Source: Chrysophaeum taylorii (lineage: Eukaryota; Sar; Pelagophyceae; Pelagomonadales; Pelagomonadaceae). From it: a DNA stretch of 64,000 nt. The notes under the pieces are model-generated. The model made no database searches. It saw nothing but the letters and a program-made list of their open reading frames with translations, and was not told the origin of the DNA. The stretch spans positions 146,200 to 210,199 of the forward strand of contig JAQMWT010000297.1 in NCBI GenBank assembly GCA_029834535.1, written 5' to 3'. Both the position numbers and the translations under genes were made by a program. Shown one piece after another: positions 36,531 to 57,242 of the stretch. Every line of letters begins with the position of its first letter. Position 1 is the first letter of the stretch.

Positions 36531-36579
36531 TCCGCTGGTCGGATGCGGACACGATACGCGTCCGTGAGCTTCTTTACTT

Positions 36580-37200
36580 CGACGACTTGGGGAGTCCCTA
36601 CAGTTGCACCTTCTCAAGTTCGAACAGCGATGCCTATGAAGTGATAGCCTATGCTGCGCGCACGATGAAGGTCGAGCCTGGGCGCATTTACTGCGTGCCA
36701 GTCGCTCTTTCAGAGCCCATGGAAACCGGGCATGTTTTCGTTGCTACGTCTTCTGGATACGAGCAACTTGGGGTAGTCGATGGAATGTGTTCTTCTCCTG
36801 AGGATCATGACAGGTTCGCAGCTCGAGTGGCGATATCCTCTACCCAGGATGTGCCGACCGTGATCACTCAAGGTGAAGTCCTTGCTTTGGGCGATATTGT
36901 TCGTTTTGATGACGAGCTGAATGCTGAGACGGTCGACGATTTAACGAAGGATGGTGAAGCCGAATCTAACAAGGCTAACCTATCATTCAGTGTTTCGGTC
37001 GCAAGCCATCTTACTCAAGGCAATGTGGCTCCCGTACTGATGCTTTTGAGCTCAGTGCAGAAGGCGTCTCCTTCTGCCGATAAGAAGAAGAATTCTCGTC
37101 AAGAATCGCTCGGTAACGACGATTTCGACCGACGAACTGACGAGGAGGAAAAGAAATGCCGAGAAGTTACAGAATGCGAGATTCGCCGAAGGTTTGAAAA
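36580..37200 (+). pseudogene. Gypsy protease-to-RT linker region
   Basis: Open frame with YEVIAYAARTMKVEPGRIYC, GHVFVATSS and VPTVITQGEVLALGDIVRFD, which resembles the beta-rich linker after the protease in many Gypsy pols ('...V..G....V.V.N....P..L..G..LG'). It continues with a charged stretch (KKKNSRQES...DEEEKKCRE) into the methyltransferase. The protease active site itself is not seen. Confidence 0.45.
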
Positions 37201-37201
37201 T

Positions 37202-38400
37202 GTCCACTGGGTGCCGATCACGTATCGCAAGGTTGTGATGCTCTTCAGCGGCGCCGGAGGAAGTACTTTAGGATTGCAACGAGCGAACGAGTTGTGCGGG
37301 ATGTCGTTTCGAGTCGTCCTTGCTCTTGACTCGTCAACAGCTGCCAACAAGGTTCATCAGAAGAATTTCCCGAAGATACCTGTGGTTCTCCAGAGCGCTA
37401 CACTATTACGTGTACGACACTGGAACACCTCACTCCTTTCACACCTATCTCCACTCGAGGGTTTTCTCTTCGCAATACGGCTTTCCCTCTTTCCTCCCTT
37501 ACCCTTCCGCCACTATTACTCTCAGATTATGAAGAATTAAATCTGCAGTTCACTTCCAACAAGGAGTAGACCTCCAGGTGCGTACCGTCAGGTGTGGGGT
37601 TGTCTGTTTAATTAATGGAGGCTTCATTCCTCATTGTCAGTGTGAACGCTTCTATGGGACCTAATGTCCTTAAGGAGTTAGGGCCTAAATCCCTACCTTG
37701 TGTAGTAGCATGTGACAAGCGGAATGGTCTGTACACGCCTTAGACTGCACGCAGTCCCTACCATGTACCCGGAGAGGGTCAAATCTCTCCAGATTCAGCA
37801 CACGCTCTGCGGACGATATGACTCGACCCTCCGATTGATCAAGGCTTATTTGCCTGAAGCGGAATGGTCATCGTCAATTTGCATGGCGTCTCCACCCTGC
37901 GTTCATTCAGCACTCTGCAACTCGACATCCAGAGATGCTGGCAGGGGAGTTACGGCCACTAATTGGACGATGAAGCTGTGCAAAATGGCTGGCTTCATGA
38001 TGTGGCTGATTGAACAGGAGGCGTCCATTATTTTTTATATAGCGCGCTTACACCCTTACGTGTACGTCGTCAATTTTCATGATATCACGCACTCTGATGA
38101 GCTCTCGCGTGCGATTGCTGGTTTCCAGTCACCCACTGCACTTGCAAGAGGCTCCGAAGACATGTGCGAATATGCAACAATAATTTGCTGCAGCTTTAGG
38201 TTACGCTCATGAACGCCACCTGCTCCAGCTGAATCATCTCGGCTCGTTCCGAGAAGCAACATATACGGCTTACACCGCTACGCGAGTTCCTCTTCGTTTG
38301 GGACCGCATCGCTCGGACACTCGGCCTTTGACTCTCGAGATGACGGCCGAGTTGCTCACGATGCCGCTGGACCATGATTGGGCTAGCTTGTATAAGACAG
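37202..38400 (+). pseudogene. Cytosine-5 DNA methyltransferase domain in the Gypsy element (split by a solo LTR)
   Basis: Motif I is VVMLFSGAGGSTLGLQRAN (37,232-37,290), with the AdoMet-binding region VVLALDSSTAAN. After the LTR the frame resumes exactly. Motif IV is MASPPCVHSALCN (Pro-Pro-Cys, 37,892-37,900), followed by WLIEQEAS (motif VI-like Glu), then VVNFHDITHSDELSRAIAGF (motif VIII position, arginine pattern weak). After a frameshift near 38,200 comes RPLTLEMTAELLTMP (motif X-like). Removing the LTR and one copy of its 6-bp duplication restores one uninterrupted frame through motifs I-VI. Expected activity: transfer of methyl from AdoMet to cytosine C5. This copy is inactive because of the insertion and frameshift. 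Confidence 0.78.
37394..37786 (+). repeat. Solo LTR of Copia family 1 inserted in the methyltransferase
   Basis: 393 bp, flanked by the duplication ctccag (37,388-37,393 and 37,787-37,792). Matches the LTRs at 2,350, 53,547 and 56,731. Its ends are AGCGCTACAC and CAAATCT, not the usual TG...CA. Confidence 0.9.
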
Positions 38401-38900
38401 ATTCGTTCAAACATTTAGCGTCGCGCGGCGCATCCTTCCATGGCACATCGAACTTTTCTTCGTATTTGAACCTCACCTCAGGGTGGCTCTTATTGATCTT
38501 TTCACCTTTGACGCGCACATTCGGCTCGCTCCTTACTTTCGGCTCCTGTTCATGTTCAGGATCCGGCGGAACGTCCACTTTTGATTGTGGGGGGGGGGCA
38601 GCAGAAAGAGCGTGAGCCGTCCCCGCGCATCTGTTTGAAGCGGAAGCATAGGCACTTCTGGCGGCTCCCATTTAGTGGGATCCTGGAGATCATCTTTTGA
38701 CACCCACTTAACGACACGAGTGCGCGTATTTGACAGTGGAATCTGTACGTGATGAAGGGTGGTGTCGGAAATTCGCAAATACTGCTCAAAGGATCGATCT
38801 GTCGGGCTCAACGCGGTCGGCATGACTTCGCCACTTTGGCGGACACCTCTGGTCACGGAGTTGTGCAGATCGACTGCTAAAATCGCAAGAGTGTCTGGGG
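38390..38900 (-). other. Segment that reads as coding on the opposite strand within the Gypsy element
   Basis: Between the methyltransferase and RT, the - strand gives sensible protein (FEQYLRISDTTLHHVQIPLS, RVVKWVSKDDLQDPTKWEPP, then after a frame change in a poly-C run, EVRFKYEEKFDVPWKDAPRD), whereas the + strand does not. It may be a local inversion or an insertion. The family is not recognised. Confidence 0.35.
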
Positions 38901-39135
38901 GGACGACAGACGCGGACGGTGTACCGTTACCGCAGACTCCGGAGCACGTCAAGGACAATGAGGCGATGAAAGTCGTAACTCTGACGAAGGAAGAAGTCGA
39001 AAAGGTTGTTCGAGAACTGGGAATTCCCGACAACCTGGATGAGGATGCGAAGATGATGTTGAGCCACTGCGTGCAATACGCGTGGGCCTTTTTTGATCCG
39101 ATTATGAGACCCGTGGACTCGCCACCGGTTTCTCT

Positions 39136-40560
39136 ACGATTAAAGACGCAAACCCACGACCGATCAAGATGACGCCTTATATGTTGACGCCAGCAAAGCT
39201 CGAGTGTCTCATAAAGCAGATCACTGAGTGGTGTCGCGATGGAGTCATCCGACCGGCGAACTCTCCGTGGGGATTCCCTGTACTGATGCTGCCTAAGAAG
39301 GGAGCAGAGGCCGGGACGTCGAATGCTTTTCGAGCTGCAGTTGACTTGCGTCAGCTCAATGATCAGCTGGTCAATGACAGTTGGCCGAATATTCGTCAGG
39401 ATGATGCTTTGGCTTTTCTTGCCACGCGCCGTTGGCGGACGTGCATTGATATTCGATGGGGTTATCATAACCTACGTTTGGACGCCGCCGCTCAGGACGC
39501 TGTTACGATGGTCAGTCCACTTGGAGCCCATAGTTTCTTGCGATTGCCTCTAGGAGTAAAAACAGCACGAGCTCTCTTTTGTAAGCAGATGGCTAGCGAT
39601 TTGTCCACATGGATGTATAAGGACTTGGTCGCGTTTGTCGACGATATTATGATGGTATCGGATGAACTCCACCGACATTTACAAGTCTTGATTGAAGTGC
39701 TGTGCCATTTAGCGCAGCGAGGATATAGTGAACGAACTTCGAAGTTCAACCTCCTCAAAGACGAAATCGAGTTTTTGGGACACATTTCGACTCCGGAAGG
39801 CTCGAAGCCGAATCCCAAGACGTTAGAAGCGTTGCAGAAGGTGCCGATTCCCAGTACGTTGCCGAACACGTCCCCGAAGACCCAGATTCGATGTTTCATC
39901 GGCATGAGCAACTATTGCCGCCGATATGTGAAGATTTATTCGAAGATTGTGGAGCCGCTGAGGCGATTGTGTCTTGGAGACGTTAAGTTTGAGTGGACGC
40001 CTGAGTGCCAAAAGGCATGGGACACGATCATCGAAGCTTTGGTGGACTCTCGCGGAGTTTATCATCCTGACTACGATCTTCCTTTTCAGATCCGCTCGGA
40101 TGCTTCCAAGGATGGTCTGGGCGCGTATCTTTTTCAGCTCGTGGATGTCAATGACGAAACCGGCAAGGTGACACGAGAGGAACGAGTAATTGAGTATTGG
40201 AGCCGAGGTGTGCCGAAAGAGATGCGGAACTATGAGCCTCGCCGGCTAGAGCTACTGGCGGTTGTTCTTTCTCTTGAGCATTTCCGCTCGTATATCGAAG
40301 GTCACAGGACGATCCTTGAAACGGATCATCGCAACTTGACGTTTGTACGAAAGGCGAAGCACTCGTCTGGGCAGTTGGCTCGATGGGCGATGCGGCTCGC
40401 CGATTTTGATCCTGAGTTGGGTTACAAACCAGGAAAGTCGCCGGGAATGAGTATCCCCTGTCTCTCTCGCAATCCTATAGATCATGTCATCGAGACGGTT
40501 GAGTTTGGTGAGCCCTTGAACCACGCATATATATATGTATCTAGTGTGCCAAAAACTTCC
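39136..40560 (+). pseudogene. Gypsy reverse transcriptase and RNase H
   Basis: RT blocks: PRPIKMTPYMLTPAKLECL, DGVIRPANSPWGFPVLMLPK, FRAAVDLRQLN, RWRTCIDIRWGYHNLRLD, SFLRLPLGVKTARALFCKQM and LVAFVDDIMMVSD (active-site FVDD). Then the connection (GHISTPEGSKPNPKTLEAL; FIGMSNYCRRYVK) and RNase H (IRSDASKDGLGAYLF; EPRRLELLAVVLSLEHFR; LETDHRNLTFV). Apart from the entry frameshift at ~39,135 the frame is open for 469 codons, so decay is recent. It ends in an ATATAT run that shifts the frame. Confidence 0.92.
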
Positions 40561-40574
40561 TCGCCCTGTCGATG

Positions 40575-41840
40575 ATGAAGGAGTACCTTTAGCTGGGTGC
40601 CACGTCATTCTGTCGTTTGTTACGACTGAGTTACCTGTGGAGGAAGAAGACGAGGATCTCGATGATCCGATGCAATTGGTCACGTCTCATGCTACGAGAC
40701 AACGTCAGAAGCAACGTCTGCAGACCCAACCTAGTATTTTCCGTGATGCCGATGAATACCAAGAGTACATCGACAAGATCCCGGATAATACTTTGGAAGA
40801 GATAGCCAAAGAGCAGATCACTGATGCTACTTGCGAGGACATTCGCTATCGCATGGCTCAGGGCCATTCTCTTCGTCGGTACGGAGCCAACTATCGCTAT
40901 CAAGTGGTGAAAGGAGTTCTCTACCGTGCCGCACCTGACTTGCACCCGATGATAGTCGCACCCCGAACTTTACGGACGATCATCATCCGATTGTACCATG
41001 ACACGCCTCTCAATCGTGGTCACATGGGTCGTCAAAGTACAGTGCAATCGATACTTGAACGTTTTTGGTGGCCCCACATGTCTAATGAGGTGGGTGCTTA
41101 TATTGCTGGTTGCATAGTGTGCAAGAAAGCTCGCACGCCTGAACCAAAGAGAGCAGGTCTTCTTCAGCAACCAGTAAATGATGGTGATTGCGCCCTCCTT
41201 TGTATGGATTTGTTAGGACTTTTGCCCAGTGCTGGTCCCGATACATATCTGATCATATTATTTGATCCATTTTCTCATTTCTTGATTCTTGACGTACTAC
41301 ACCATAAGACTGCTGAATCAATCCTCGAGTCTTTTGTCGCGAATATATTACTCAAGGGTTATCTACCTCAGAGGATTCGTACCGACAATGGGAAAGAGTT
41401 CGTCAAAAAATTGATGGAAGAGTTTTGTCATCTCTTCAATGTTCGGTATAGTACCACGATTCCGTATCATGCTCAGGCTAATCCTGCGGAAGGGTCAGCC
41501 GCTTTATCAAGGCTTTCCTCCGTGCGTGTCTTCAAAACCGCAAGATCGCGGACTGGCCCGAATTCGCGGAGTACATTGCTTTTTGCTACAATCGTAAGTT
41601 TATTCCGGGAACTCAGATCTCACCTTTCATGCTTCGTCTCAACCGGCAGCCTCTATTGCCAACAGATTATACGATCATGGATCTTGATGTCCGCCGCCTG
41701 CCGAAAACTCGCTCCGATGTTGAGGCAGAGACTCGCGAGAGGTGGAAATTCTATACCGCTACGGTGAACGAAGCTCGCGAGAAGGCTCTTCGTAAACCAC
41801 GTCTCGCTTACAATGCGGACCATGTCGATGGGAGTATGAA
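40575..41840 (+). pseudogene. Gypsy integrase
   Basis: Zinc site H-H-C-C: LYHDTPLNRGHMGRQSTVQS...CIVCKKA. Core: LLCMDLLGLLPSAGPDTYLI (Asp), PQRIRTDNGKEFVKKLMEEF (Asp) and YHAQANPAEG (Glu position, then a frameshift at ~41,490). In the next frame the core continues (FIKAFLRACLQNRKIADWPE, AYNADHVDGSMKKV). Confidence 0.88.
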
Positions 41841-41918
41841 GAAAGTTCACATGTTCTGCTCTACATCCCTTTTCTTCAGAACAAGCTTCGACCGGAATGG
41901 CGCGGTCCATTCGTTATT

Positions 41919-42506
41919 TTGGAACGCTTGTTTCCGGTCACTTGCAGGATTGAGTCTCTTGATTCTCCTCCTGAACGCCGTTGTGTTCATGTCAGTCAGA
42001 TCACCCCTGTGATGGTTTCTCCAGTGGTCGATCGAGCTGTGCCCAAACCCAAGGAGACCTTCCGGGATGATTACAAGCACGGTAAGTTCGTTGTATGTCG
42101 GATTCCAGATAACAAACGGTCCGATTGGCGAAAGAAGATTTACGTAGCTGCAGTTAATGAGCCCTATGATTTTGTGAATGATCGAGTCGCTCTGCATTTT
42201 TATGCTGATCTTGGTCCCCATGACAAGGTTTCTTTTTACAGGCCTACCTCACATCTCTCTACTCGCAAGCTTAAGCCGGAATACAGGGACGTGGACGGTC
42301 GCAGTTTCACCGACAAGTCCAAGGTCAACAACAGTACCACTCCTTGTGTCACCGACTTCGCCCCGCATGAGATCGATGTATTGATTCCTAAGTTCACTTT
42401 GCGTAGTGGACGGGTTCCCGAACCTGTCGTTGAACGTGTCTACAAGAAGATTCGTCCCCGAGATGCTCATTCAGCCAAGGCTCGTGATTCTCGCCGGACT
42501 CGCTGA
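41919..42506 (+). pseudogene. Gypsy integrase C-terminus with extra domain
   Basis: Starts with the usual RPEWRGPFVILERLFP-type end of integrase (just upstream in another frame) and VHVSQITPV. It then has ~150 additional residues (KHGKFVVCRIPDNKRSDWRK; ALHFYADLGPHDKVSFYRP) before the stop. The extension resembles no chromodomain; its role is unknown. Confidence 0.6.
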
Positions 42507-42997
42507 GGGCAGCTCGTATTCTCACCAGGGGAGTCCTGTGGCGGCAACTCCTGACCGCTAAGGCTTACCCTCCCTTCTCGAGGCTTGATACCCGTTCAAC
42601 GGGACGCCTTTTCCTACTTTCCTAGTGACATCATACCTCTCCCTCGTGAGAAGCATTCTTGCAGCATTCTTGTAGCATTCTTGCTATCTGCAGAGCATTT
42701 AGCATGCAGTGGTAAGTCACCTGGGAAACCATCCCGTCTCATCATGAACGTCTGGAAGGTTAATTCGGGGAATGAAAGGTATGTTCCCTATATCCTCAGA
42801 ACACGACAGGCGGCATCTAGAACTACACGAGAAAGGTTAAGTGTATAGTGCTACATACCTCGGGGCGCGCTAGACCATGATGATGAGCTTGAGCACAAAT
42901 CAGAGGACTAATTGACTGTGTAGAAAGGAAGAAGAAGGGTAAGGAAGAGATCACGCTCTCAACGGACGGACAAGGGTAAGAGGCAGCAGATTTCTCT
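42507..42997. repeat. Junction of Gypsy 3' end and Copia Z 3' LTR
   Basis: On the - strand a purine tract CTCGAGGGGGTGC (~42,999-43,011) is followed at 42,997 by AGAGAAATCT. This parallels GAGGGGGTCC-AGAG before the family-1 LTRs, so the Z LTR should run from 42,997 downward to ~42,650. The rest should belong to the 3' end of the + strand Gypsy. Three AGCATTCTTG repeats lie at ~42,650-42,690. Exact borders are not resolved. Confidence 0.4.
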
Positions 42998-43141
42998 GCA
43001 CCCCCTCGAGATGTCATAAGCGCAAGGTGCGACTATAGAACACCTCTGGATAAAGATGATGATGAAGGAAAGCAAAATGATAATACAACCTTCATGGTCG
43101 CAGAGGTCACATACGAAGCATCAAGAGTATAGAAGGGGTGT

Positions 43142-45153
43142 CTAGGGCTTGGACTTGGTGGAGCCGAGAGTCGATTTGACGCTTTTGAACAGAACATTAC
43201 GAAACACAGGTACGACAGACAGTGTGTTAGGGCTATCTGAGGTGGTGGACATCGTTACTGGTTCGAGAGTATTGGTATCGTCGTCGTCAGCTTCTGCTGT
43301 AAGGTGGTGAACACCAATAGCAGAATGGTGTGGTACCATGCGAAACGTGAGTGCAAGTAAAGCATTCAGTATGGATGGCACCAGCGAGTCAAGTTGTAGG
43401 GTGTCCAGTTGGTTTTCCAAGAAGTTGGACTCAGCGAACGGATCCGAGAAGATAGAAGAGTCTTCCGATTCACATGAGATCGGGATGCTCTGAATGCATG
43501 AGAGCAACTTGTCACGCAGATGAAGGAGGTGATCGTCCGGGGAGGAGTGGCTGGCGGCATATTGGTCATGAGCGGTAAGAGTTAAGCGAGACAACAGCTC
43601 TGTAACCTTGTACAGTGTTATAAGTAACACGTGCGCGTTGGCTGTAGGAGGAAAGAGCCGGTTCTCCAGGGAGGTGATTGAAGCAATGGGAGTCTGTAGA
43701 TCTGTGAGTAGAGATAGATTCTCAGCACTGAGAGTGTTGACCTTGCGAACGTGTATTCAAAGAGTTTCCTGGAGCTGTTCGACTTGTTGACGCAAGGCAT
43801 CGAAATCATCAAGCGAAGCAGAGGGCGCAGGGTGTGTCGATGGCGAAGACATCTCCAGAGTAGGGTCGGATGTGGAGAGTGAGTAGTTTAGCGACGTTTC
43901 GGTCAACACATGCTGTGCAAGTAGGGGGTGTTTCGCGTTTAAAAAGCGCAGAGAGTCTTGATGTTCTTCCTGAGTATAAGTGGTGCCGAACATTACATCC
44001 AGGAGTGACGGCGGTTTTGTATCATCTGAAGATGATACGTGTCGTCAAGATTTTGTACCCACGATTGGGCAACATTGGTAACCACAGGTTGGAATTTGGA
44101 GGGCTTGAACATAGCCTGAGCTTTGCGACTCTGTGTTCGAACAAGAGTCACAAGGAAATTAAGATGCTCAAGGTGCATCTGTGTTATAAGCCGACGATCC
44201 AGTGCGAATGGCATTTGTGTAGTAGGATCTGTTGTGGCCAGAGCGGATACAGATAAGACCAAGTTAACAAGTGACGGGTGTTGCGCTAGCATACTTGTCA
44301 AAAGAGTATATAACTTTCTTAGCAGATGATAGATGCGCATGAGGTAAGCGCGTATATGACCGGCTGAGCGCGCATCACGAGGGAATTGGAAGGAAGTATC
44401 ATTGCAAGCACATACGGTAGGTTGAATAGGCACCTGATCAGTATTGTGACACGCGAAGCACAAACCAATAGTAATAGCAGACATGGGGATGTGACCATTC
44501 TTCTTATGGTCGTCCGTGTTGAGGTGACTCAGCACTTCGGTGGGGAGTTCACGAGGCGTTTGAGCTTAGAACTGTACGTGGTCGAGACGAGGAAAGTCGG
44601 TTGTCCAAGATCATTGAGGCATCGCACACAAAAGGACGACAAAATGAAACGTTCGCGTTTGGGGCCTCTATAGCAGCCAATAGAAGCAATAGCAGGAGCA
44701 GCTTCCCAAGGTATAGTAATGGGCAAGCGCATGGATGTGAATGTGGTCATTTCCACGAATAATGAAAAGTCAGTAGACTCATAGACGGAGTGTAGGGCAG
44801 TGATGAGTTCCACTCGCATAAAAGAAGAGAGAAATGGGGTGACAGGGACACGGAAGTTCTCAAGGAGAGAGATTCCTCGTTCGTACAAAGCATAGTCCAT
44901 GCTGAGGCCGTCCTGGAGCTTTAGCGATTGAGGTAAGATATTTTCGGCTGGTGTCGGTGCAACAGCAGCAGTCTGTGGGGTAACAGTAGCAGCAGTCATG
45001 GGTTGTCGCTTCGGCGACAACCTGGGAGAAGGTTCGGCCGTGGAGAGCGAGCGTGGGACTGTCCTTCGAACGACTGGGGAGATGCCGCGGCCACGGGAGT
45101 GCCAAGAAAAGGACATGAGCGACACTCACACGCGTACAAAAAATTTGTGGCAA
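43142..45153 (-). pseudogene. ORF3 of Copia Z
   Basis: Frames 44,529-45,125, 43,993-44,535, 43,757-43,993 and 43,142-43,630 form one protein of ~600+ residues with frameshifts. The middle has CVRC...LNTDDHKKNGH...GLCFACHNTD, the same C-x2-C / H...H / C-x2-C spacing as in ORF3 of A, X and Y (CTKC...H..HCFD...CVMC), although overall identity is low. The C-terminal half is helical with coiled-coil stretches (DDFDALRQQVEQLQETL). It contains one TETSLNY motif. Function unknown; it lies after pol, like an env or extra gag gene. Confidence 0.5.
43884..43904 (-). repeat. Interspersed boundary motif, inside ORF3 of Z
   Basis: The - strand GACCGAAACGTCGCTAAAC is read in frame as TETSLNY, between the Cys/His half and the coiled-coil half of ORF3. 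Confidence 0.65.
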
Positions 45154-45172
45154 AAGAAGGTAGGGCCAGGGC

Positions 45173-45193
45173 TAGTTTAACGACGTTGCGGTC
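45173..45193 (-). repeat. Interspersed boundary motif, between pol and ORF3 of Z
   Basis: GACCGCAACGTCGTTAAAC just after the RNase H stop codon. One frame reads TATSLN followed by TAG. The matching position in A and Y reads SEMTLN followed by a stop. Confidence 0.65.
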
Positions 45194-45200
45194 ACTAGGG

Positions 45201-45896
45201 TTAGGCATCTTCAATCCTGTAAAGGCTTGTCGTCAGAAGCACGATGCATACCGAGTAGAGAACGAAAAGTGGAGAACTTAGCAGCAATGGCTTTGTAAAA
45301 CCATCAGCCACGTTTAGCTTGCCGGGAACATGATGGACTCGAATTTTCTGTAGCGAGATGTACTCACGGATCTTAAAGCCTCTGGCCGACAGTGCCTTGG
45401 AGCGAGATGATCCATCTGGGTTATTATAGGTGTGAACAGCAGCAGCATTGTCAGACAAGAGAGGTAGGCTTCTGATGAAGCGCATATGTTCCGCAATTGG
45501 GTTGTCATTGCCATCGAAATCAACAGGATCAGCGGTGTTCTCACCATTAACATTGTTGACGTAGAAGGTGGGGTTGACGACAAAAGAGAGTTCCAACAGT
45601 AGCTTGCGTAGCCAAACAGCTTCATCAGCACAAATACTGAGGGCAATCAACTCAGCTTCGTGAGTTGAGCAGGAGACAATCGGTTGAAGCTTGCTTTTCC
45701 AACCAATAAGGCAGTTGAAAAGATAGAAGACAAACCCGGTGGTAGATTTCCTATTTTCCTGTGCTAAGGAAGGGGCGTTGTCAGCGTCGACCATGGCTAC
45801 TAAGGGATCAAACTGTCCAGTGGATACATCCTGCGGTTGGTAGTCGACCACAGTGGATAGATCGATTCTATTAGCGGAAACAGTGCGAAGGTGAGC
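45201..45896 (-). pseudogene. Copia Z RNase H
   Basis: NRKSTTGFVFYLFNCLIGWK, STHEAELIALSICADEAVWL and VHHVPGKLNVADGFTKP are the standard Copia RNase H blocks. A TAA at 45,897-45,899 separates it from RT. It ends with a stop at 45,201. Confidence 0.88.
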
Positions 45897-47079
45897 TTAA
45901 ATAGCATTACCTTTAGGATGAAACCAGAGGTGAAGTGAGCGGTTTTCCGGCTTCCTCAGGTAGCGGAGCAGGTGTTCTAGCATTTGGACGTGAACATACG
46001 TGGGTGCATGCATACCACGCGAACATCTGCCCAAGGCTTGCGAGAAGTCAGGTCTGCAGGCCACTTGCATGAACACCAGCTTGCCAAGGAGGGTGGCAAA
46101 GTGCGAGTTGATGTACAACTCTGTTTCAGAGCTGGGAGTGCCATCTTCATACTTGAAGGACGAAGACATAGGATATTTAAGCGGAGTTAGTTGCTGCAAG
46201 ACAGGATGATCAGCGAAGAGTTCATCAAGCTTGGCTTGCACATCCAGAGAGATGGATCCGTCAGATGTGCGACACACACGCATGCCTAGGAGGGTATGGA
46301 CAGGTTCAAACTGCTCTACAGCATACCGTTTGTGAAGGGCATCCTGTAACTCAGTACGAAGAGTGTCATCATTAGACACAATAACAATTTCGTCTACAGA
46401 CAGACTGCATACGACGAACTTAGCATGTGCGGATACTCGAGCATATAGGCAAGAGTCCGAATGCAGGCGCTTGTAGCCAAGGCTACGGAAGAAGCCATCT
46501 ATCTCTTTGTTCTAAAGAGATGGTGATTGCCGAAGTCCATAAAGTGACTACAGCAGTTTCGGTAGGCGTCGGCCCTTGTACTTAGCGTCATCGGGGTCGA
46601 TAAGCTTGATGCGGTCTGGTAACTGAACATAGACGCTGGCATCAATGTCAGACTGAACGAAGGCGTTCGGGACGTCTGCGTGGTAGACAGGCAATTGCTT
46701 GTATGCTGCAATAGCCAGTAGTACCCGGATTGCGGTCATTGTGGCCATTGGGCTGAAGGTGCCAAAGAAATCGGCGCCATGGGATGCTAGGAAGCCACGT
46801 AGCACGAGGCGAGCCTTGTGCTTTACGTATTTGCCTGCAGAGTCCGTTTTAATCTTCAGCACCATCCTGCTGTCAATAGGGCGAGAGACACCGTCGGGTG
46901 ACGAAAGTTTGAAGCAACCAAAGCGGATAATGTCGTGGAGTTCCTTGGCGATGGCCTTGAGGTAGGCGTGCCTGTCTTCAGGCGACATACCGTGGAGGCA
47001 CTTAAGTTTAAATTCGTCGATGGAAACGCCCGCTTCTTGGACCTTATATTCGTCAGGACCAACAGTGGCTGGTGAACTA
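45897..47079 (-). pseudogene. Copia Z reverse transcriptase
   Basis: KLKCLHGMSPEDRHAYLKAI, SRMVLKIKTDSAGKYVKHKA, LRGFLASHGADFFGTFSPMA and YHADVPNAFVQSDIDASVYV, then after two in-frame TAG codons (in SLYGLRQSP-type sequence) an altered active site SVDEIVIV where VDD is expected, then LLGMRVCRTSDGSISLDVQA and AHTASTA-type spacing. The altered active site and stops mean no activity. Confidence 0.88.
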
Positions 47080-47100
47080 TAGTTTAACGACGTTGCGGTC
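47080..47100 (-). repeat. Interspersed boundary motif, just before RT of Z
   Basis: GACCGCAACGTCGTTAAAC read in frame as TATSLNY, ~25 residues upstream of the first RT block. Confidence 0.7.
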
Positions 47101-48242
47101 GAGGCAGTGTGCGCGACTTCGGGATAAGCGGAAACAGCGTCAGTAGGAGGGGTAGAGGAAGCAGATTCCAGTTGAATATGGATAGTAGGGTCGGCATGTA
47201 AGACCTGGGTGATATAATCTGTAGAGACCAGAAGGTATTCCTCCAATTCAGACAGAGATGCAGAATTAGCGCCAAACTCGGAGGAGTTGTGATCGATAAA
47301 GCTGGTCGGCGCCAGATACGTAAGTGCATACTGTAAGGAAGAGATGCCAAAGGCAGCAGGGTGATCAGTGAACGCGGCTAAAAGAGGCTGCGGAATGGAG
47401 CGCGTAGGTGAACCATCAGCAGTTAGAAAGGTTGCGGCTGGGATGCTGGTCGCGCACTTAGCGTGGGCGAAGTAACCATCGACGTGCGGGTAACGGGCAA
47501 GTAAGTCAGTGCGCAACGGGAGAAAAAGACGAGCTAACAACGCATGTTCCCCCTCTGAGCAGATAGCAGACCAAAGGATACCACCATTGATATGCAGGGC
47601 GGAGAGGGCGGGGGACTTGAACGTAAGAAAGTGGTGGCGGAGATCCCAGCGGAAATCGGCGAGTTTGCCACCAGCGGCTTTGTAAGCACCAATAGTAGAC
47701 GCTTGCAGCCGGGCTTGGATATTCTTCCTGGAGGCTGCCTTGCGGTTGTTAGGTTGTTTGGAACCTGGGACATGAACGAGGTCATCTTGTGCAAAAAGGT
47801 CCTTGTAAGAAGGAAGCAAGGGCGGCGGTGGCATAGAGCCAGAATCGTCGACGGGAGGAGAGTCGGAAGTAGGAGGAGAAGCAGGAGCAGGGGACGAAGA
47901 AGGAGCTGAGGGAGGTGGAGAGTGCCCCCTCTGAGGATGAGGTGTCCGTGTCCCCCTCTGAATGAGATGGTCTTGGATAGCAGCGTGGGGTGTGAGCGAG
48001 AAAGGCGCGGGGGGAGCGTGAGGCGGAGGAGCAAGTTCAGGATCAGGAGTAGGAGTAGGATGCTGGAGCATGTAGAGGAATTGCAGCTTGGACGAAACAC
48101 GGATTTGTCCGTTTTCAGGGTTGAGGACGACGTCGGCAATATGGTCAACGGGTGGGGAGACGAGCGGGTTTTGCGCGTTAGCGCAACATAGATATAGGTA
48201 CTTGCGGCGGCACGGTTCCCACTTGTGGTGCTCGTGGGGTTC
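47101..48242 (-). pseudogene. Copia Z integrase C-terminal region and Pro-rich spacer
   Basis: Starts HHKWEPCRRKYLYLCC at the LINE junction (the usual integrase C-terminal 'folding' segment), followed by a Pro/Ser-rich region and an unrecognised ~250-residue spacer (HINGGILWSAICSEGEHALL...). The frame is open to the RT. Confidence 0.55.
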
Positions 48243-48974
48243 CAATATAAGGTAGCACTCTGCGCCGCTTCATACCGGTCGTCGACCAGTTTAAGTACCT
48301 CGGCTCGGTCCTCTCGCGCGACTGCCGCGACGACTCAGACGTCGACGCGCGGATCAAGAAGGCGTCTCAGGCATTCGGTGCCTTGCGGGACTGCATCTTC
48401 GCCTCGAAGTCCGTCTCTGCTCGCGCCAAGCGCCTCGTCTATGTCTCGCTCGTCCTGGCCATCCTCCTTCACGGTGCGGAATCGTGGTGCCTCACCGAGG
48501 TCCTGTTCCGCCGGCTGCGGTGTTTCCACGCGCAGTGCGCCCGCGTCGTGTGTCGTGTGACCCGGAAGCACACCTGGCTCCACCACATCTTAACGGAGAT
48601 CCTGCTGCGGCGCCTCGGCCTCGAGTCCATCGACGTCTACGTCACGCGCCGCCAGCTCCGCTGGGCCGGTCATGTCGCCCGCATGCCCTTCTCCCGACTC
48701 CCTCGCAAGATGCTCTCGTCTTGGGTCCGCTCCAAGCGCCCACCGGAGGCTCCGCAGATGACGTACGGGAGGACGCTCGCCAAGGCACTCCGGAAATGCG
48801 ACATCCCCTTCAACTCGTGGCACGACCTCGCACAAGACCGCGCGCAGTGGCGGTCCGCCATCAACGCCTTTTCATCCCTCGCCTCCCAACTGTGTGATTT
48901 TGCTCTGTGATCCTGGACCGGCTACTGCCGGTCCAGCCTGGCTCCCATGCCCGGGAGAGGTCCGAAGTTAGTTA
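48243..48974 (+). mobile_element. 5'-truncated LINE insertion (ORF2 C-terminus) with GTTA tail
   Basis: Encodes ~218 residues of the post-RT region of a non-LTR retrotransposon ORF2: QFKYLGSVLSRD...DARIKKASQAFGALRDC, LAILLHGAESWCL, RQLRWAGHVARMPFSRLPRK, stop at 48,910. A ~60-nt 3' UTR ends GAAGTTAGTTA. It is flanked by gttc (48,239-48,242 and 48,975-48,978). Removing it and one gttc restores the Z integrase frame (KIIRAEPHEHHKWEPC). Its last ~80 nt match the SINE tails. Confidence 0.88.
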
Positions 48975-49661
48975 GTTCAGCGCGGATGATCTTGAGCATG
49001 GCATGCTGGGGGGTGCTCAGTTGATTGTAGAGTAGCTGTTGCGGACTCAGGATAGCATGGTGAGTGCGCTCGAGCGTGGCGTTCGGGAGAAGGTTGTAGC
49101 TTTGGATGGTGTGTATTACCGCCCAGGGAAACATGATGGCTGGTTCCACGATCTTGGAGCCACGATCTTGAGCATTAAGGAGAGAACGAAGGCGAGTTGA
49201 GGAGGCGGAGGCGATGAAGCCGATGGCTGACTCGACTTCAAAGTTAAAGTGGTGCATGTACGGCGGGAAAGCGACGAGGTGAATGCCCTTATCGACGCGG
49301 CACGGGGCGGTAATGTTACACAAAGTCCAGAGCTTTTATTGAACTCCGTGGCGTTGGTGGTGCGTGTAAAGTACACCAAGAGAAACTTCGAGATAAGTTC
49401 TTTGAACACAATAATATGTGTGAAGCCTCCCCATTCTGATGGAATTGTCACATAGCCGCCGTCGCACGCCCAGACTTCGCCGGCTTTGTGAGTTTGCTCA
49501 AAAGAGGGCTTGGTCGGATTGAAGTGCTTGTGCGGGTGGCGCTTGTTATATGCGATGCAGTCGGTGCATAAGTCGCGATAGGGTAGGCCTGAGGCAGAGA
49601 AGCCAGGGCGAGCCAGTACGTTGGGGGCCTTGGCTGCGACGTTGTCGGGACAGTGGTGCAC
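48975..49661 (-). pseudogene. Copia Z integrase core
   Basis: Zinc site HHCPDNVAAKAP...YRDLCTDCIAYNKRH, first Asp in EVWACDGGYVTIPSEWGGF, FKELISKFLLVYFTRTTNAT, then after a frameshift VDKGIHLVAFPPYMHHFNFE with the Glu in FEVESAIGFIAS, and RTHHAILSPQQLLYNQLSTP. Normal Copia layout. Confidence 0.8.
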
Positions 49662-49682
49662 CCGGTGGAAGCGATTGGCAAG

Positions 49683-50576
49683 TTATTTGGCGTTGAGGTA
49701 TTCAGCAGATCCGTGTGCGAAGGATTTGCGAGGAATGGGATGAGCGGGGATATGACGTTTGCGCCGAACATCGAACTTGAGTTCGGTGTCCAAGGCAGGA
49801 GGAGGTGGTGCGTCGTCATCCTGGTGCGCGGCAGGGTCACTTGGAGGTGCATCCTCATCATCGCGAGTAGCGAGAGTATCTTCGTAGGACGAAGATGTAT
49901 AGTTTAACGACATTTCGGTCAAGCAGTTGCTGGAGATAGACGTCATAAAGGCTTGTGCCAAAGACAAGGTATCTGTGCTGCACGTGGTGGAGGCCGGATC
50001 AAAGGTCATGGAGTTGGATACATAGGATTTCTTCGTCACGGCAGCAGTATGTTGGAAGGTAGGGTCCAACATAAGAGATTTAATATCGGCAACGAGGAGC
50101 GAGAGGTGCTTGTACAGTGTACGTACAGGCAGAGCATTGCTGAGCATGTCGCAGCAAAGGTCGTGGCGAAGAGACAAGAGGAAAGATTCCTGTTGCTTGG
50201 TGTGGTTGTGAGCACAAATCAACTCCGGTCGAGTAGGATGGCGTAGTTTCCCGCTGCGAGGGTCGAGTACGATAATGTTTGCATACCCTCGGACGGTGGG
50301 CAATGGAGCAAGCATGGAGTGGATTTTAGAGCCGAGTTTGCGGTCACTTCCACGAATATACCCTATTTAGTGACTATGAGATAAGTGGTGATCTTCCACA
50401 GCAAAATGAGAATCCTTGTAGTCGAAAGAATTATCAGTGGCCTTGTAGGTAAGGCAGCCAGGCATCACAAGAGAGCATATGGACAAGAGCTTTTGTATGG
50501 CGGTGCCATAGGTGGCAGCGGAGCCAACTTGGGGAAGGGTTTGGATTATCCACAAGTAACCCATAGACGGCTCCAA
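49683..50576 (-). pseudogene. Copia Z linker between methyltransferase and integrase
   Basis: Frames 50,367-50,576 and 49,683-50,315 contain GYANIIVLDPRSGKLRHPTR, then the boundary motif (TEMSLNY), an acidic/Pro-rich stretch and RRKRHIPAHPIPRKSFAHG leading into integrase. No enzyme domain is recognised. Confidence 0.4.
49900..49920 (-). repeat. Interspersed boundary motif, before integrase of Z
   Basis: GACCGAAATGTCGTTAAAC read in frame as TEMSLNY. Confidence 0.7.
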
Positions 50577-51182
50577 TTATATAGATCTGTCTCTGTCGCG
50601 GGGGACGTTGGAGGCAGTAAACGTATACGTGCTTCCAAACGCGTCAATGGAAGCATGATATTTGGCGGCGGCGTTTTCTATGGTGAGGTTGCCGTCAGAA
50701 TGGTGGCCGCCGGTTAGGAAGTAGCTATTGAGGGATGTTGATGAGGCTGTAAGTAGTAACCTATGTGACGGTTGGTCAGTTTCGAAAACGGTTATGGAAT
50801 AGGACACAGGAGTGGGTGAGTTGGTGTGCAATCTGGCAAGCACGCTATAGAGGATGGTAAAAGCCTTAACATGCAATGGAGTAGTTGCATGAGGCAGTGG
50901 ATCCATGGAGGAGCGTTTGAAACACAGCTGATGATAAGTACACTCGGATTGAGCAGAGTGCGTGCGTTGCTCGTGAGCCTGTTGTGAGTGAAGGCGCAAA
51001 AATAACAAATTGAGTGTTTCGAGGTCAGTCATAGTAAGCTGAACAGAGCCTGTGCGAGAGTAAGGTGCGAAAGTGTTAGGAACGGGGACATATGGAGGAT
51101 CGGGGAACACCCGGATCCAGTCTCTATAGATATTTTTGGATAGCCAAAGTCGTTTAGGAATGGCTTGTATGTCATCCACGAT
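50577..51182 (-). pseudogene. Region downstream of the Z methyltransferase core (possible target-recognition part)
   Basis: In frame after a TAA, it reads VDDIQAIPKRLWLSKNIYRD, PNTFAPYSRTGSVQLTMTDL and further unrecognised sequence. A 'pre-motif X'-like LTMTDLETLNLLFL is plausible for the end of a C5-methyltransferase, but this is weak. Confidence 0.35.
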
Positions 51183-51188
51183 CTTAAG

Positions 51189-52172
51189 TTAGGGGCGTGG
51201 GTGGTGGATAGGCCATGACAGTATGTTGATTGGTCCAGTAGAATACCTGCGTGCGATGCAGATCCATCTTCCCCTAGATTGGTAGTCGCCACAGAGGTAG
51301 GTCGGGAACCTGTCAACAACATCAACACAGTAATCGAGTGTGGCATGGATGAGATTGGCGACATTCATATGGTCTTGATGACAGTACTTGTGGGGTGGTG
51401 TCATCTCAGCCAGTAGTACCAAGGGTTGGAGAAGTTTGATGACAGACAGCATGCTGTAGAACAGAGAGTCGTCGAGCAGGCTGTGTAAGTCTTCGGTCTT
51501 ATGCTGCTTTAGTACATTCCTGTTGGTGCAGGGAGGAGTGATCTCAATAATATCACAATAAAATTTGCGCCTTTCCTCTGGTGAGATTAGGTGAAGATGG
51601 TTGATAAAGGCGTGTAAAGATTCAAATAATAATACTGTAGGAAAATGGCGGCGTAGCATGCGCACAAGCGTATCATCAGACTCAACAACAACTTTTACAT
51701 TGATGTTTAAGCCTAGGTCATTAGTGGCTTGAGACAGGAACTCTGGGGTTGACAAACCAGAACAGAGTAACATGACAGAGGGTTTGCGAAGATTGGGCCC
51801 TTGTGAGAGAAACACTGGGCAAGAAAGCATCCATGTTAATGGCGGAGTGTTTTGTTGGACGAACTTGTTATGTTCCCGAAGATTAAGAACCAAAGGGCGA
51901 ATCCACGGGCGATCTGGTGAAACCCTCTTAAGGAGATATTTATAATATGCCAGTAGATCCCTGTTTTCGTGGTATCGCTTGAGCGGAAATGCGCGGGAGC
52001 GTAGTTCGAGTTGCTTGTCGCGAGCGATGTTGTAGGTGAGACCAGGGAGAGCAGGCAAATTAGCTGCTACGTAATGTAGGGGAATACGCACATCTTTGTC
52101 TATGCGGCTCGTGACAGCGCTGAGCTTTGGTTCAGATCGACCATTGAACACAGTGGTCAAGTTCGTCTGGTT
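51189..52172 (-). pseudogene. Cytosine-5 DNA methyltransferase domain in Copia Z
   Basis: An uninterrupted 324-codon frame with ordered C5-methyltransferase motifs: I, SVMLLCSGLSTPEFLSQ (res. 128-144); II, VKVVVESDD (E160); the RHFP that follows; IV, DIIEITPPC (catalytic Cys 211); VI, LVLLAEMTPP (Glu 252); VIII, GDYQSRGRWICIARR (QxRxR, 294-298). Spacing matches bacterial and eukaryotic C5 enzymes. It lies between the protease (upstream, across one TAG at ~52,172) and the integrase linker. All catalytic residues are kept although other parts of Z are broken, so this domain was functional until recently. Motif I has CSG instead of FSG and lacks the second Gly. Role suggested: methylating the element's own DNA or that of competitors. 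Confidence 0.8.
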
Positions 52173-53546
52173 CTACTCGAGCATGCTCAGGATAGCGAGA
52201 TGTCGGTTGTGCACTGGCTGAAGACATAAAGTGAAATCAATCTTCACGTGACCGATTTGCGGATGATCTGGTAGGGGAACAACTATATTACGGGTAATAT
52301 CATATGTGAGGCACGTTGTTGTCCAGTGGCAGTTTGGATAATAATCGGCGCGTATTTGGAATCCAGTGGAATAATATGATTTGGTATTGCGAAATCGTAT
52401 GTGGACATTAATGATATGGTAGCACACGAGTCAAAATATAAAAAGGAACAATGTTGGGGGACACTGTTTACCTTCATATATTTCGTTGGAAGTGCATTTT
52501 CCGAATGCGGGCAAGTAGTGGAGAGGCTGCCAGTGAAGAAGTTCTCCAGAAATAACAGGTGAGTTGGAATGATAATCGGCTGAACAGGTGGTGATGGTTC
52601 GTCAGCCTCATCAGCCATGCCGTGCTTCTCATCAAATGATGATAGCGAGGTCTGATCGACATCCCTTGTGGTTTCGGCTGGTGGTGGTTGGTTGATGGCT
52701 GATTGGACCTGTGAAGATAGCGAGGACAGTAACGCTGGTGGTAACGCCGAGATGGCGGAAGCAGTAAAGAAGTTCGGCACATTATCGGAGGGATTACCCT
52801 GCGTGTTGGAGGCATTCTTGGTATCTGTAGTAGGAGGAGTTGCCGTTGGGGTAGGAGCAGTAGCAGCAGTATGATGTTGTGGCTCCACGTAGTTTAACGA
52901 CTTTTCGGTCGAGGATAGATAAACGTCTACATCACAAATGATGTCTGATGTCTCTGCGAACATGAGTTGTTCGTTTAGGCGAAGTAAGTCACTATTGTCC
53001 TCAGTAGATGTCGTTGACAGAATATCAGCGGATTGCAACAGAGTCTCAAATAACTTGGTGGTGCTCTGTTGTAGCTGAGCCGTGATATCATTATCCGTCA
53101 CCTGCTTCGTAAGTTCACTACACTGCTCTTGCCGTGTATTTAAGGTGTGCTTCGTTCGATCTAATAATTTCATGTTAGATCGAGAGGACCTGTCGAAAGT
53201 GCGAGGGTAAATTGGACGGTCATGGGACTGTCCAGCAGTTTTCTTGGTGACATAAGAGTCACCAGAACGATAATACGATAGGTCGCTGCGAGAGAAAGGC
53301 TGGCGTGCATCGTTAGAGTTACGCAAGCGTCTAGCGTTAAACGTGGAGGATGTTCCAGGTTGAGAAGAAGTAATGGACGCGATTGTGTTTGCAGTTTGAG
53401 TCAGACTTTTGTCTGATAAATCCAGCGTGTTTGTTGGTAGTAATTTGGGCTTTGGTTGTGGTGTCAATCTTCCAACATAAGGCTGCCAAGAAACAGGGCG
53501 TTCTAAGCGTCTCTTGATCGACCCATCTGATACCACATTATTGGAG
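52173..53546 (-). pseudogene. Copia Z gag C-terminus and protease
   Basis: Ser/Thr/Gln-rich spacer (res. ~1-330), then an aspartic protease signature SFLYFDSCATISLMSTYDFA with DSCAT in place of DSGAT, and a beta-rich tail (IIIQTATGQQRASHM, then after a frameshift RNIVVPLPDHPQIGHVKIDF), ending at a TAG. The N-terminus is cut by element Y at 53,546. No zinc knuckle is visible in this part. Confidence 0.6.
52890..52910 (-). repeat. Interspersed boundary motif, upstream of protease of Z
   Basis: GACCGAAAAGTCGTTAAAC read in frame as TEKSLNY. Confidence 0.7.
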
Positions 53547-53938
53547 AGATTCGACCCTCTCCGGGTACGTGGTAGAGACTGCGTGCAGTCTTAGGCGTGT
53601 ACAGACCATTCCGCTTGTCACATGCTACTATACAAGGTAAGGATTTAGGCCCTAACTCCTTAAGGACATTAGGTCCCATAGAAGCGCTCACACTGACAAT
53701 GAGGAATGAAGCCTCCATTAATTAAACAGACAACCCATACCTGACGGTACGCACCTGGCGGTCTACTCCTTGTTGGAAGTGAACTGCAGATCTAGTTCTC
53801 CATAGTCTGAGAGTCATAATGGCGGAAGGGTAAGGAAGGAAAGAGGGAAAGCCGTATTGCGGAGAGAAAACCCTCTAGTGGAGATAGGTGTGAAAGGAGT
53901 GAGGTGTTCCAGTGTCGTACACGTAATAGTGTAGCTCT
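53547..53938 (-). repeat. 3' LTR of Copia element Y (family 1)
   Basis: 392 bp, matching the LTRs at 2,350, 37,394 and 56,731. Preceded on the - strand by GTTGAGGGGGTCC. It abuts the interrupted gag of Z. Confidence 0.85.
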
Positions 53939-54080
53939 CTGGACCCCCTCAACGTGTGAAATAATTGTTTATGCATTTCAGACGTTCTTGAGGGCGGAAC
54001 TTGTGTAAGGTACATGAGAGCAGCGAACAAATTAAACAAACAACAATAAAACAGGGGAAGAGGTAACATAACAAATTAGT

Positions 54081-56071
54081 TTAGGAAGATGAGGTTGGGC
54101 GAGTCGTGACATTGCGTAAAGAAGCGGCATCCACAATATCAGATGTGTGGTCCAACTCATCATCACTATTATCCTCCAGTTCCTTTAACTCTGGAGAGGA
54201 AGAATCATGATCTTCGGGTTGGTCGTTAGCAGTATTGTTTGTAGTGATAGCATCACTGAGGGCGACCAGGGGTGCCATGACAGAAGATAGGAAGGACATA
54301 GCTGCGTCCGGTGTTAAAGTATGCAAGTCTGCTGCCGGGATAACATGATCCTGTGCATCAGACATAGCGGTATGTAAGTTACGAGCTGTATCGTCGATTA
54401 GAGTTTGCTGTGTCTCGTCATAAGTACTTGGAGGAAACTGTCCAATAGTCGAAATGAATGATCGCGAGATTATGTGAACAAAGACAGCAAGGGTAGGCAT
54501 CATAGAATCTTGGTGCATTTGGTAGCTTGATAGTATATTAACCAAGAGCGCGACATGCTTAATATTGTCGGTTACTTGAGCGCTTAGTGTGGCATAAGCT
54601 TCTTGTAGCTGAGTTAAGTTCTCTTAGAGCAGTCGATAGTTGTTGATCTCGTTCCATCAATTGCTGCTCACTGTTAGTAAGACGTGAGGATAGGGATTGA
54701 ATTTCTCCTTTTAACTGGCGTAAAGATTCAACCACATTGTCGTTAGGTTCGTCTGGCGTGGGTTCAGCAGATGTAGTTTCGACTGGTGCCGGTGTTTCAC
54801 CTTCAGACAATTTATTATCTGAAAATGCGTCTATTATAGCAGAGGGATAGCCAACCTGGACTAGCACGTTTTTGAATGCGGACTGATGCTCAGGTGAAAG
54901 GTGAAGAAAGTAATCTAACATTGGCGGTACCATCTCGTGAGAAGTGTCATTAAGCTGGTGAAAGACATCATTAACGAAACTTTCAATGAGCACATTATGT
55001 AGCTCGTCAGGATTGGTCACGACACAGATTTTATCTTCAACCGACTGTAGTAATGACCAAGCCGCTACAAGAATCTCGAGATTTACGTTCGAGATATAAG
55101 GCAGCTGTAGCAAGAGGGGAGCGTTGGCGTCAGGGTTTACGATGATTTTAGAAGCATCTAAGTTATGGATAGCCATACATTTCATGAGCGCCTCTTTAAG
55201 CAGCTTGTTGATTGCAATGGACTTCCCAAAGCGGAGAATGATAGCTCTCATGTGTGCAGCTGGATCATTATAGCAAGAAAGATGAAAGGACTGTCGGCTG
55301 TTCCTAATTAACGCTGTCCCGTGCTGCGACAAATTACACATGACACAGATCAGAATAAAAAATGGACGCGGTACGTCAAAACAATGCGAAGCATGTTGAT
55401 CTGACGCAAGGTGGTCCTCGATGATTTTAGTGATTTTGTCCGTTTTAAGCTCATCTTCGGTGCATATGGCGAGTACAAGGGGTGTACCCAGCGCATCGGT
55501 TTTGTTAAAGCACTTCGTACACGCCACGTGTACTTTGACAACGCCTTAAATGGGTGTGTATCGACGAAATACCCTCGTTTGTCGGTATGTTAGGAGCGTT
55601 ACGGATGCGCTTCGCCTTTAGACACAATAGTGAGCTCAGGAATTGGAGGTTGTCAACACAGTTATTTTGTTGTGCCTCCGTAAGCAGTTGTTGGATGGAT
55701 TGATGCCAACATTGAGGATCCTTAGGTGGTGGTAGCAAAAAAGTCGGTGGCTGGGTGCCAAGCGAAAGAACGTTCCCTGACATCATCGCCATAGCATCGA
55801 ATTTACAATGCTTAAGCAGAAAGTACTCTGTGTTTGCCACATGCGATTTAGTTTGATGTTGCGCTGTTTGAGATTTAGGAGTCACTGGCGAGGACTGATT
55901 TCCTTGAGCAACCGAAAGATACGTTTGATGCTTCCGATTAGGAGAACTAGTTGGAGCAACGCCTGGATTTAGTGCATTAAATGGAGATGATAATGATGTT
56001 ATGCCGCCACGTCCACGGTTTAATACAGAGTAACGTCGGCTCGCAGCATCCTTGTTCTTGGCAGGGTTCAT
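54081..56071 (-). pseudogene. ORF3 of Copia element Y
   Basis: ATG at 56,071 (MNPAKNKDAASRRYSVLNRG). The SSPNRKHQTYLSVAQG block, CTKC...HCFD...CVMC site, NDPAAHMRAIILRFGKSIAI and the Gln-rich coiled coil are all present, with an acidic end (ELEDNSDDELDHTSD) and stop at 54,081. Two frameshifts (~55,520 and ~54,560) break it. Very similar to ORF3 of X and A. Confidence 0.65.
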
Positions 56072-56181: not shown

Positions 56182-56730
56182 TTAAGCATCTTGCTGAGCT
56201 ATGGGTTGTTGTAAACCAAGTAACGTGCGGAATCTAGTGAAAAGTGGAGCACCAAAGGGTATAGTGAATCCATCAGCGATGTTCTGAGTACCGGAAACAT
56301 GATGTAAGCGAATGCGCTTTACATGTACGTAATCGCGAATACGAAACCAGCGTGTGCTAATAGCTTTGGCCTTAGTCGCACTGTCAGGATTATTTCATAG
56401 ATGGATACCAGAAGCAGAATCCCCAAGTATCGGGCTGTTACGTATGAACGACATGTCCGATGGGAGAGGGTTGTCGTGAGCATCATAATATAATAACAAA
56501 TCTTTCCCTGGAGGTTGGCGAAGATAGTATTGTGGGTTTATAGCGAATGCCATTTCCGTTAACAATTTGCGTAACCAGACCACATCATCAGCACACATAT
56601 TAAGGGCAATGAGTTCACTCTCATGCGTAGAAGTAGCTGTGATAGGCTGTAGTTTGGACTTCCAGGTGATGAGAGAACCGAACAAAAAGATAGCGTAGCC
56701 AGTTGTAGACTTGCGGTCTCGTTCATAGAG
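56182..56730 (-). pseudogene. RNase H of Copia element Y (cut by X)
   Basis: Starts at the X LTR with YERDRKSTTGYAIFLFGSLI, then STHESELIALNMCADDVVWL...NIADGFTIPFGAPLFTRF and QQDA-stop at 56,182. Element X lies immediately upstream, within the segment that reads NAPSYEQDRKSTTG in the homologous copy at 61.85 kb. Confidence 0.85.
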
Positions 56731-57120
56731 AGATTTGACCCTCTCCGGGTACATGGTAGAGACTGCGTGCAGTACTAGGCGTGTACAGACCATTCCGCTT
56801 GTCACGTGCTACTACACAAGGTAGGGATTTAAGCCCTAACTCCTTAAGGACATTAGGTCCCATAGAAGCGTTTACACTGACAACGAGGAACGAAGCCCCC
56901 ATTACTTAAACAGACAACCCCATACCTGACGGTACGCACCTGGAGGTCTACTCCTTGTTGGAAGGGAACTGCAGATCTAATTCGTCGTAATCTCAGATAA
57001 AAGGGCGGAAGGGTAAGGAAGGAAAGAGGGAAAGCCGTATTACGGAGAGAAAACTCTATTGCAGAGATAGGTGTGAAAGGCGTGAAATGTTCCAGTGTCG
57101 TACACATAATAGTGTAGCTC
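56731..57120 (-). repeat. 3' LTR of Copia element X (family 1)
   Basis: 390 bp, the same family as the other LTRs. It sits between ORF3 of X and the interrupted RNase H of Y. Confidence 0.85.
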
Positions 57121-57242
57121 TCTGGACCCCCTCAACGTGTGAAAGGATGGTTTATGCATTTCAGACGTTCTTGAGGCGGAACTTGTGCAATATACGTGAG
57201 AACAACGAACAATGAAACAGACAACAAAACATGGCAAGTTAA

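Follow-up and report, generated by a model that had tools for sequence, protein, structure and literature searches.

A predicted C5-cytosine methyltransferase behind a conserved in-frame UGA in a multi-copy Copia retrotransposon family of the alga Chrysophaeum taylorii

We analysed a stretch of 64,000 nucleotides from the pelagophyte Chrysophaeum taylorii (contig JAQMWT010000297.1, positions 146,200 to 210,199; hereafter the window) and found on its minus strand the remnant of a Copia retrotransposon with a predicted C5-cytosine methyltransferase (MTase) between a protease-like motif and the integrase. The remnant belonged to a family with the domain order Gag, protease, UGA, C5-MTase, integrase, reverse transcriptase (RT), RNase H, an extra open reading frame (ORF) and a long terminal repeat (LTR). 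On balance, we favoured the reading that this was a multi-copy Copia family whose Pol protein would be made by stop-codon readthrough and led by an MTase acting on the cDNA of the element. An earlier note on the same DNA had proposed the MTase and its location but missed the conserved UGA, the dead state of the window copy and the part of the MTase lying outside the frame that it described.

The MTase was first visible as a 327-residue open frame on the minus strand that ran from 52172 to a stop at 51191-51189. Along this frame were arranged in order the segments that we take to be motif I (VMLLCSGLSTP, 51744-51776), motif IV with the catalytic Cys (EITPPC, 51528-51545), motif VI with the catalytic Glu (LLAEMTPPH, 51390-51416, where EMT replaced the usual ENV) and motif VIII (DYQSRGRW, 51264-51287, in which QxRxR was present). 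Motif I was assigned by its position, and the other three by position together with their conservation in the family. A structure model of modest quality, built from 213 residues of the window itself, was compared with known structures by Foldseek, and ranks 1-37 were all C5-MTases. DNMT2 was at the top and MET1, DNMT3 and DNMT1 were next at similar scores (12-20% identity to the eukaryotic DNMT1/MET1, DNMT2 and DNMT3 structures), and these matches did not separate DNMT1, 2 and 3, leaving the MTase without a class. Judged by modelled fold and residues, the frame was a genuine C5-cytosine MTase with predicted catalytic activity, and the minus-strand frame with ordered motifs that had been claimed before was confirmed.

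The extent of the domain had to be revised. Homology to the relative P0002 started at residue 120, the first 113 residues (51834-52172) were the tail of the Gag-protease frame upstream of the family UGA, and the domain continued past the end of the frame to about 50484. It spanned 50484-51830, from the residue following codon 114 to a motif-X-like segment (QVGSAATYGTA, 50531-50484; labelled by eye), and was interrupted by the stop at 51189-51191. Since the same frame downstream of this stop carried sequence alignable to P0002, the stop was a copy-specific nonsense codon; the frame was open at this place in the family copies L003, L016 and L022.

Profile searches with PF00145, which had been recommended as a check, gave a divided answer. 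Namely, the window frame scored below threshold (E 0.056, 13.3 bits, under the curated cut-off of 22) and three family frames of the genome had no match at E 1, whereas P0003, a relative from an ENA contig with 42% identity, passed at 23.0 bits. P0002, a relative from an MMETSP transcript with 44% identity, reached 20.2 bits, below the cut-off. Catalytic residues were retained in both relatives, and in the alignment of the three lineages the motif IV Cys, the motif VI Glu and the Gln and two Arg of motif VIII did not vary. A protein database search with the MTase family profile returned only P0002 and P0003 among the 8000 best word-sharing candidates scored, and a search with the Pol region 1-460 of the copy L071 gave nothing at E 10. 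Among solved structures searched by sequence, the window frame had one irrelevant match and the family profile matched only 8yf3 (E 0.19). The NCBIfam search yielded nothing relevant, and no relatives were confirmed in viral and prokaryote contigs.

The MTase was a trait of the family. At least 124 rows matched the frame in the 70.8-Mb genome, a few of them being pieces of one copy, and 70 of the 124 were analysed (30 extracted in the search itself, including the window copy, and 40 chosen by hand). The window contig C297 and the contig C10 (210,199 and 209,419 bases) had a 99% identical match at nearly equal positions and looked like haplotypes of one locus, so the copies were not all independent and the counts may be inflated. 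In the fetched copies, the motif IV Cys was kept in 68 of 70, the motif VI Glu in all 70, the Gln in 68 and each of the two Arg in 67. The ratio of nonsynonymous to synonymous substitution rates (dN/dS, NG86) in the MTase part was 0.054-0.107 in seven of the 12 pairs compared and 0.164 for L051-L016. The window copy and L003, a near relative of it, gave 0.386, a value in line with decay after insertion. In three pairs with L056 or L058, saturation of synonymous sites prevented the calculation. The 3'-end rows and MTase rows were compared by hand: among the first 31 3'-end rows, 19 had an MTase row on the same strand 3-6 kb upstream (15 of the 19 at 4.1-4.8 kb), while 12 had no such row listed. 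One of these 12, on C181, began at base 468 of its contig, and the rest may be truncated, unscored or devoid of an MTase. From the sequence comparison we concluded that the MTase is part of the family and that purifying selection acts on it between most of the copies compared, which supported, as a family trait, the earlier placement between protease and Copia integrase.

We also looked at CpG dinucleotides as a possible trace of self-methylation. The observed/expected ratio was 0.93 over 49317-53541 and 0.71 in the MTase part, with a mean of 0.85 in the middle parts of family copies. For comparison, it was 0.93 in the other Copia element, 1.11 in the Gypsy element and 1.29-1.42 in two host stretches. 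CpG depletion was not discriminating as a trace of self-methylation.

Between the protease and the MTase, codon 114 of the frame (51831-51833) was TGG in the window copy and TGA in 64 of the 70 family copies. The six exceptions were TGG at the window locus and on C10, GGA in L059, TGC in L060, and indels in L055 and L067, where the letters TGACTA were still present. Among the matches listed, at least one TGA occurred in 115 of the 122 rows covering codon 114, the position of the TGA being checked in the fetched copies only. The rest of the same 70 frames contained four TGA, 14 TAA and six TAG versus 209 TGG. Therefore, UGA was not an ordinary Trp codon, and its use as an ordinary sense codon was ruled out. 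When 69 of the 70 copies were placed on a tree rooted with L056 and L058, the TGG of the window fell within a clade that was otherwise TGAATG and TGAATA. Because of this nested position the TGG was derived, and according to the family tree the UGA was ancestral and has been kept.

The codon after TGA was CTA in 37 and ATG in 13 of the 64 copies, and the two most divergent copies, L056 and L058, both had TGA CTA. Upstream of the UGA, these two matched other copies at 33% and 41%, respectively, of the codons with identical amino acids. In codons 115-140 the identity was 60% for L056 (versus 33-42% outside codons 115-160) and 39% for L058. Synonymous constraint 3' of the UGA was not supported, the lowest interval starting at codon 148 with a permutation p of 0.07. 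In L071 the UGA separated Gag-protease from MTase without a shift of reading frame, and for most of the 70 copies the tblastn alignment stayed in one frame across codon 114. The site thus combined a conserved in-frame stop, frames in register and a leaky context, as a readthrough site does. No stimulatory 3' RNA structure was detected in any of the seven copies folded (z -0.51 to 0.59), a feature that some readthrough sites lack, and no selenocysteine insertion sequence (SECIS) was matched within the window, to which the search for selenocysteine was confined. The ORFs of P0002 and P0003 opened just upstream of motif I, which would fit an interruption at this point in other species. Since the UGA was kept in 64 of the 70 copies and CUA came next in 37 of them, including the two most divergent ones, the MTase probably stood at the start of a Pol made by readthrough. 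Tca2 is also a Copia element. The accessible text on Tca2 describes a gag-UGA-pol junction that alone gave no readthrough in yeast (PMC2194720), and that on fission yeast elements reports TGA then CTA or CTG as conserved at their gag-pol junctions (PMC10085805).

In the favoured reading, occasional readthrough of UGA-CUA would give a low level of a Gag-protease-MTase-Pol product, and the MTase would be packaged into the virus-like particle together with the integrase and RT. It would then methylate cytosines of the element cDNA before or at integration, and the new copy, once methylated, might be taken for host-like DNA or come to lie in methylated chromatin that is tolerated. The same family and enzyme could, however, be translated through termination and re-initiation or from a separate transcript, with the UGA as the ordinary end of Gag-protease. 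This would fit UGA AUG at the junction in 13 of the 70 copies, the complete transcript ORF of P0002 with its Met start at the equivalent place (the Met start of P0003 lay nine columns upstream of that of P0002), and the minor promoter that the accessible text places inside the Tca2 junction (PMC2194720). On the other hand, the divergent outgroup copies had UGA CUA with no start codon there, the next usual Met (codon 134, in 64 of 70) would fall within motif I, and Gag-protease and MTase shared one frame across the UGA. We considered translation of this kind doubtful.

The MTase could also be an active enzyme whose substrate was RNA rather than DNA, for example packaged genomic RNA or the primer tRNA. 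DNMT2, which ranked first in the Foldseek search with the window model, is a tRNA methyltransferase, and the accessible text on the Symbiodinium LINE (long interspersed nuclear element) MTase, which gave no de novo DNA methylation in yeast, raises RNA methylation (PMC5890265). However, MET1, DNMT3 and DNMT1 had similar Foldseek scores, so the fold does not choose between these substrates, and we rated action on RNA as rather unlikely. It was also improbable that the domain had lost catalysis and was retained as a C5-MTase relic with a structural or DNA-binding role in the particle or in integration. Although EMT instead of ENV in motif VI, CSGLS in motif I and APC instead of PPC in motif IV of one relative might point to such a relic, the five key residues of motifs IV, VI and VIII (Cys, Glu, Gln and two Arg) were invariant in three lineages and kept in 67-70 of the 70 copies. 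As for a chance frame or a late insertion in a single copy, for which the single-copy PF00145 E of 0.056 could speak, we found it wholly implausible. It was ruled out by the copy search of the same genome with its minimum of 124 rows, together with the relatives, the dN/dS values, the catalytic residues and the uniform Foldseek ranks.

With regard to the origin of the MTase, hhalign aligned it to a host gene in L075 with motifs I, IV and VI in register (E 0.0069, hhalign probability 5.6%), which was no more than suggestive of an origin from a host DNMT. Beside the host DNMT2-like gene, on the opposite strand, was a frame that by eye resembled a chlorophyll-binding antenna protein preceded by a leader of the secondary-plastid type. 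This suggests that the host alga has a secondary plastid.

The Copia copy in the window (42688-53541, minus strand) was 5'-truncated inside gag, and the remainder was disrupted by a nonsense codon, a change of frame and an insertion. Over most of 53541-46472, it had 95-96% DNA identity to positions 3077-9501 of L071, and its 3' end near 42688 was common to other genome copies. The part at 52406-53541, identified by tblastn of the L071 gag frame, encoded the C-terminal Gag and the aspartic-protease-like motif YFDSCATISLM (52438-52406); the protease was called by this motif, with no Pfam protease match. The integrase (48976-49700) was recognised by the zinc-binding-like motif RFHRVHHC...CTDC (49673) and the start of the core (49469), its profiles being below threshold (rve E 0.019 in the window, SH3_retrovirus E 0.00029 in L071 pol). 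The RT (45897-47795) matched RVT_2 at E 1.9e-19 and 5.1e-08, and at E 6.8e-29 in L071. An RVT_2-type RT with integrase motifs upstream of it is the arrangement of Copia elements. The copy was split by a 0.7-kb stretch (48268-48975) that formed an alignment gap to L071 and, translated on the plus strand, contained the C-terminal frame of what we take to be a LINE-like RT. The next region (45201-45896), with KSTTGFVFYLF at 45749, was presumably the RNase H according to its translation and motif position, with no Pfam match at E 1. It was followed by extra-ORF frames (43033-45125) and then by the 3' LTR (42688-43001), which was about 315 bp long and had TG...CA ends. This LTR was 98.7% identical to positions 1155-1469 of L071, a stretch upstream of gag, so that the two LTR positions came from different copies. 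Among the lesions, gag broke off at 53541 next to a repeat of about 400 bp, the frame changed near 52295, the nonsense codon stood at 51189, and 77 bp of L071 were absent near 49317. Thus, on its sequence the window copy was a dead family member, a remnant with the UGA mutated to UGG.

Several other features were observed around this copy. The Copia elements here seemed to carry an extra ORF downstream of RNase H and ahead of the 3' LTR (43033-45125 and 54559-55545, both on the minus strand), and its frames resembled each other by eye, including a shared Cys/His pattern. Pfam matches of the frame at 54559-55545 were below threshold, the best being FAM76 (E 0.00031). The repeat of about 400 bp was present at 2345-2746, 37389-37791, 53542-53943 and 56728-57126 and was perhaps an LTR of another Copia family. 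From 59449 on, a long array built of units of about 8 bp adjoined the Copia fragments.

A second MTase-bearing element was located in the window at about 36314-42506 on the plus strand. It was a Gypsy element with RVT_1, RT_RNaseH, Integrase_H2C2 and rve matches and its own C5-MTase, with motif I VVMLFSGAGGSTLGL (including FSGAGGSTLGL) and motif IV SICMASPPC. The MTase was split in the window by the repeat at 37389-37791, while an uninterrupted frame in L074 matched PF00145 above the cut-off (E 1.7e-5, 24.8 bits). At least 150 rows matched the Gypsy MTase in the genome, and the motif VI Glu was not obvious in the copies read. One Gypsy frame was compared with the Copia MTase by hhalign profiles, and no convincing match indicating common origin was obtained. 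Across the genome, 57 PF00145 rows were listed. The 55 besides those on C634 and C621 were above the cut-off, and most of them covered profile positions of about 22-166, in frames of up to 1952 residues. By eye, further PF00145 matches on C4, C96, C314, C523, C564 and C683 were kilobases away from Gypsy rows.

Transposons are usually the targets of silencing by cytosine methylation, and this picture is inverted when an element's own MTase is kept under selection. The Copia superfamily, with a conserved leaky stop as a possible natural control of dose, joins the few known cases. The presence of two MTase-bearing LTR superfamilies in one small algal genome offers a natural comparison of why capture happens. 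It is possible, and we propose it only tentatively, that an orphan C5-MTase lineage is the fixed first domain of a UGA-readthrough Copia Pol in several algae. In this proposal, the low, stop-controlled dose in the particle would methylate the element's own cDNA, a Gypsy family would have arrived independently at the same solution with a different C5-MTase, and the host would select for elements that arrive methylated.

Symbiodinium LINE and DIRS elements and a Gypsy element of Klebsormidium have been reported to carry C5-MTases (de Mendoza 2018, PMC5890265), and the accessible text of that paper states that Symbiodinium Copia elements lack DNMT. One sentence of a 2025 paper, as far as its accessible text goes, mentions DNMT3 members in LTR Copia and DIRS elements and cites the 2018 paper (PMC12344493). 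The word Copia may be a slip there, since the cited paper says Gypsy; nonetheless, Copia has been named in print. In the full-text literature searched, which lacked most subscription papers, we recognised no other Copia MTase with a conserved UGA. Thus, MTase capture is known in LINE, DIRS and Gypsy elements, and the Copia arrangement is a new variation.

The following comparisons draw on the accessible parts of the cited papers. An in-frame UGA between Gag and Pol is shared with Tca2 of Candida and with Tj1, Tosmo and Tcry1 of fission yeast, the latter three also sharing TGA then CTA or CTG. However, no MTase is described there for any of these elements, and the fission yeast elements have the protease within Pol, whereas here the protease-like motif was upstream of the stop. 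Sola1-1_Ec32 of Ectocarpus is likewise an algal mobile element with a DNA methyltransferase, but it is a DNA transposon that also has a ParB-like domain, and its enzyme is predicted to be of the N4-cytosine or N6-adenine type (PMC12477816). With the eukaryotic DNMT1/MET1, DNMT2 and DNMT3 enzymes, the Copia MTase shared the fold and catalytic motifs, while its motifs I and VI were divergent. SymbioLINE-Dnmt and SymbioDIRS-Dnmt3 of Symbiodinium (PMC5890265) are similar in being C5-MTases of many-copy retrotransposons in an alga, in LINE and DIRS backbones rather than Copia. KnitGypsy-Dnmt3 of Klebsormidium nitens (PMC5890265) is also an LTR element with a C5-MTase inside Pol and under purifying selection. 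It is, however, a Gypsy element with an enzyme of the Dnmt3 class, whereas the C. taylorii family is Copia and carries a divergent MTase directly behind a conserved UGA and ahead of the integrase.
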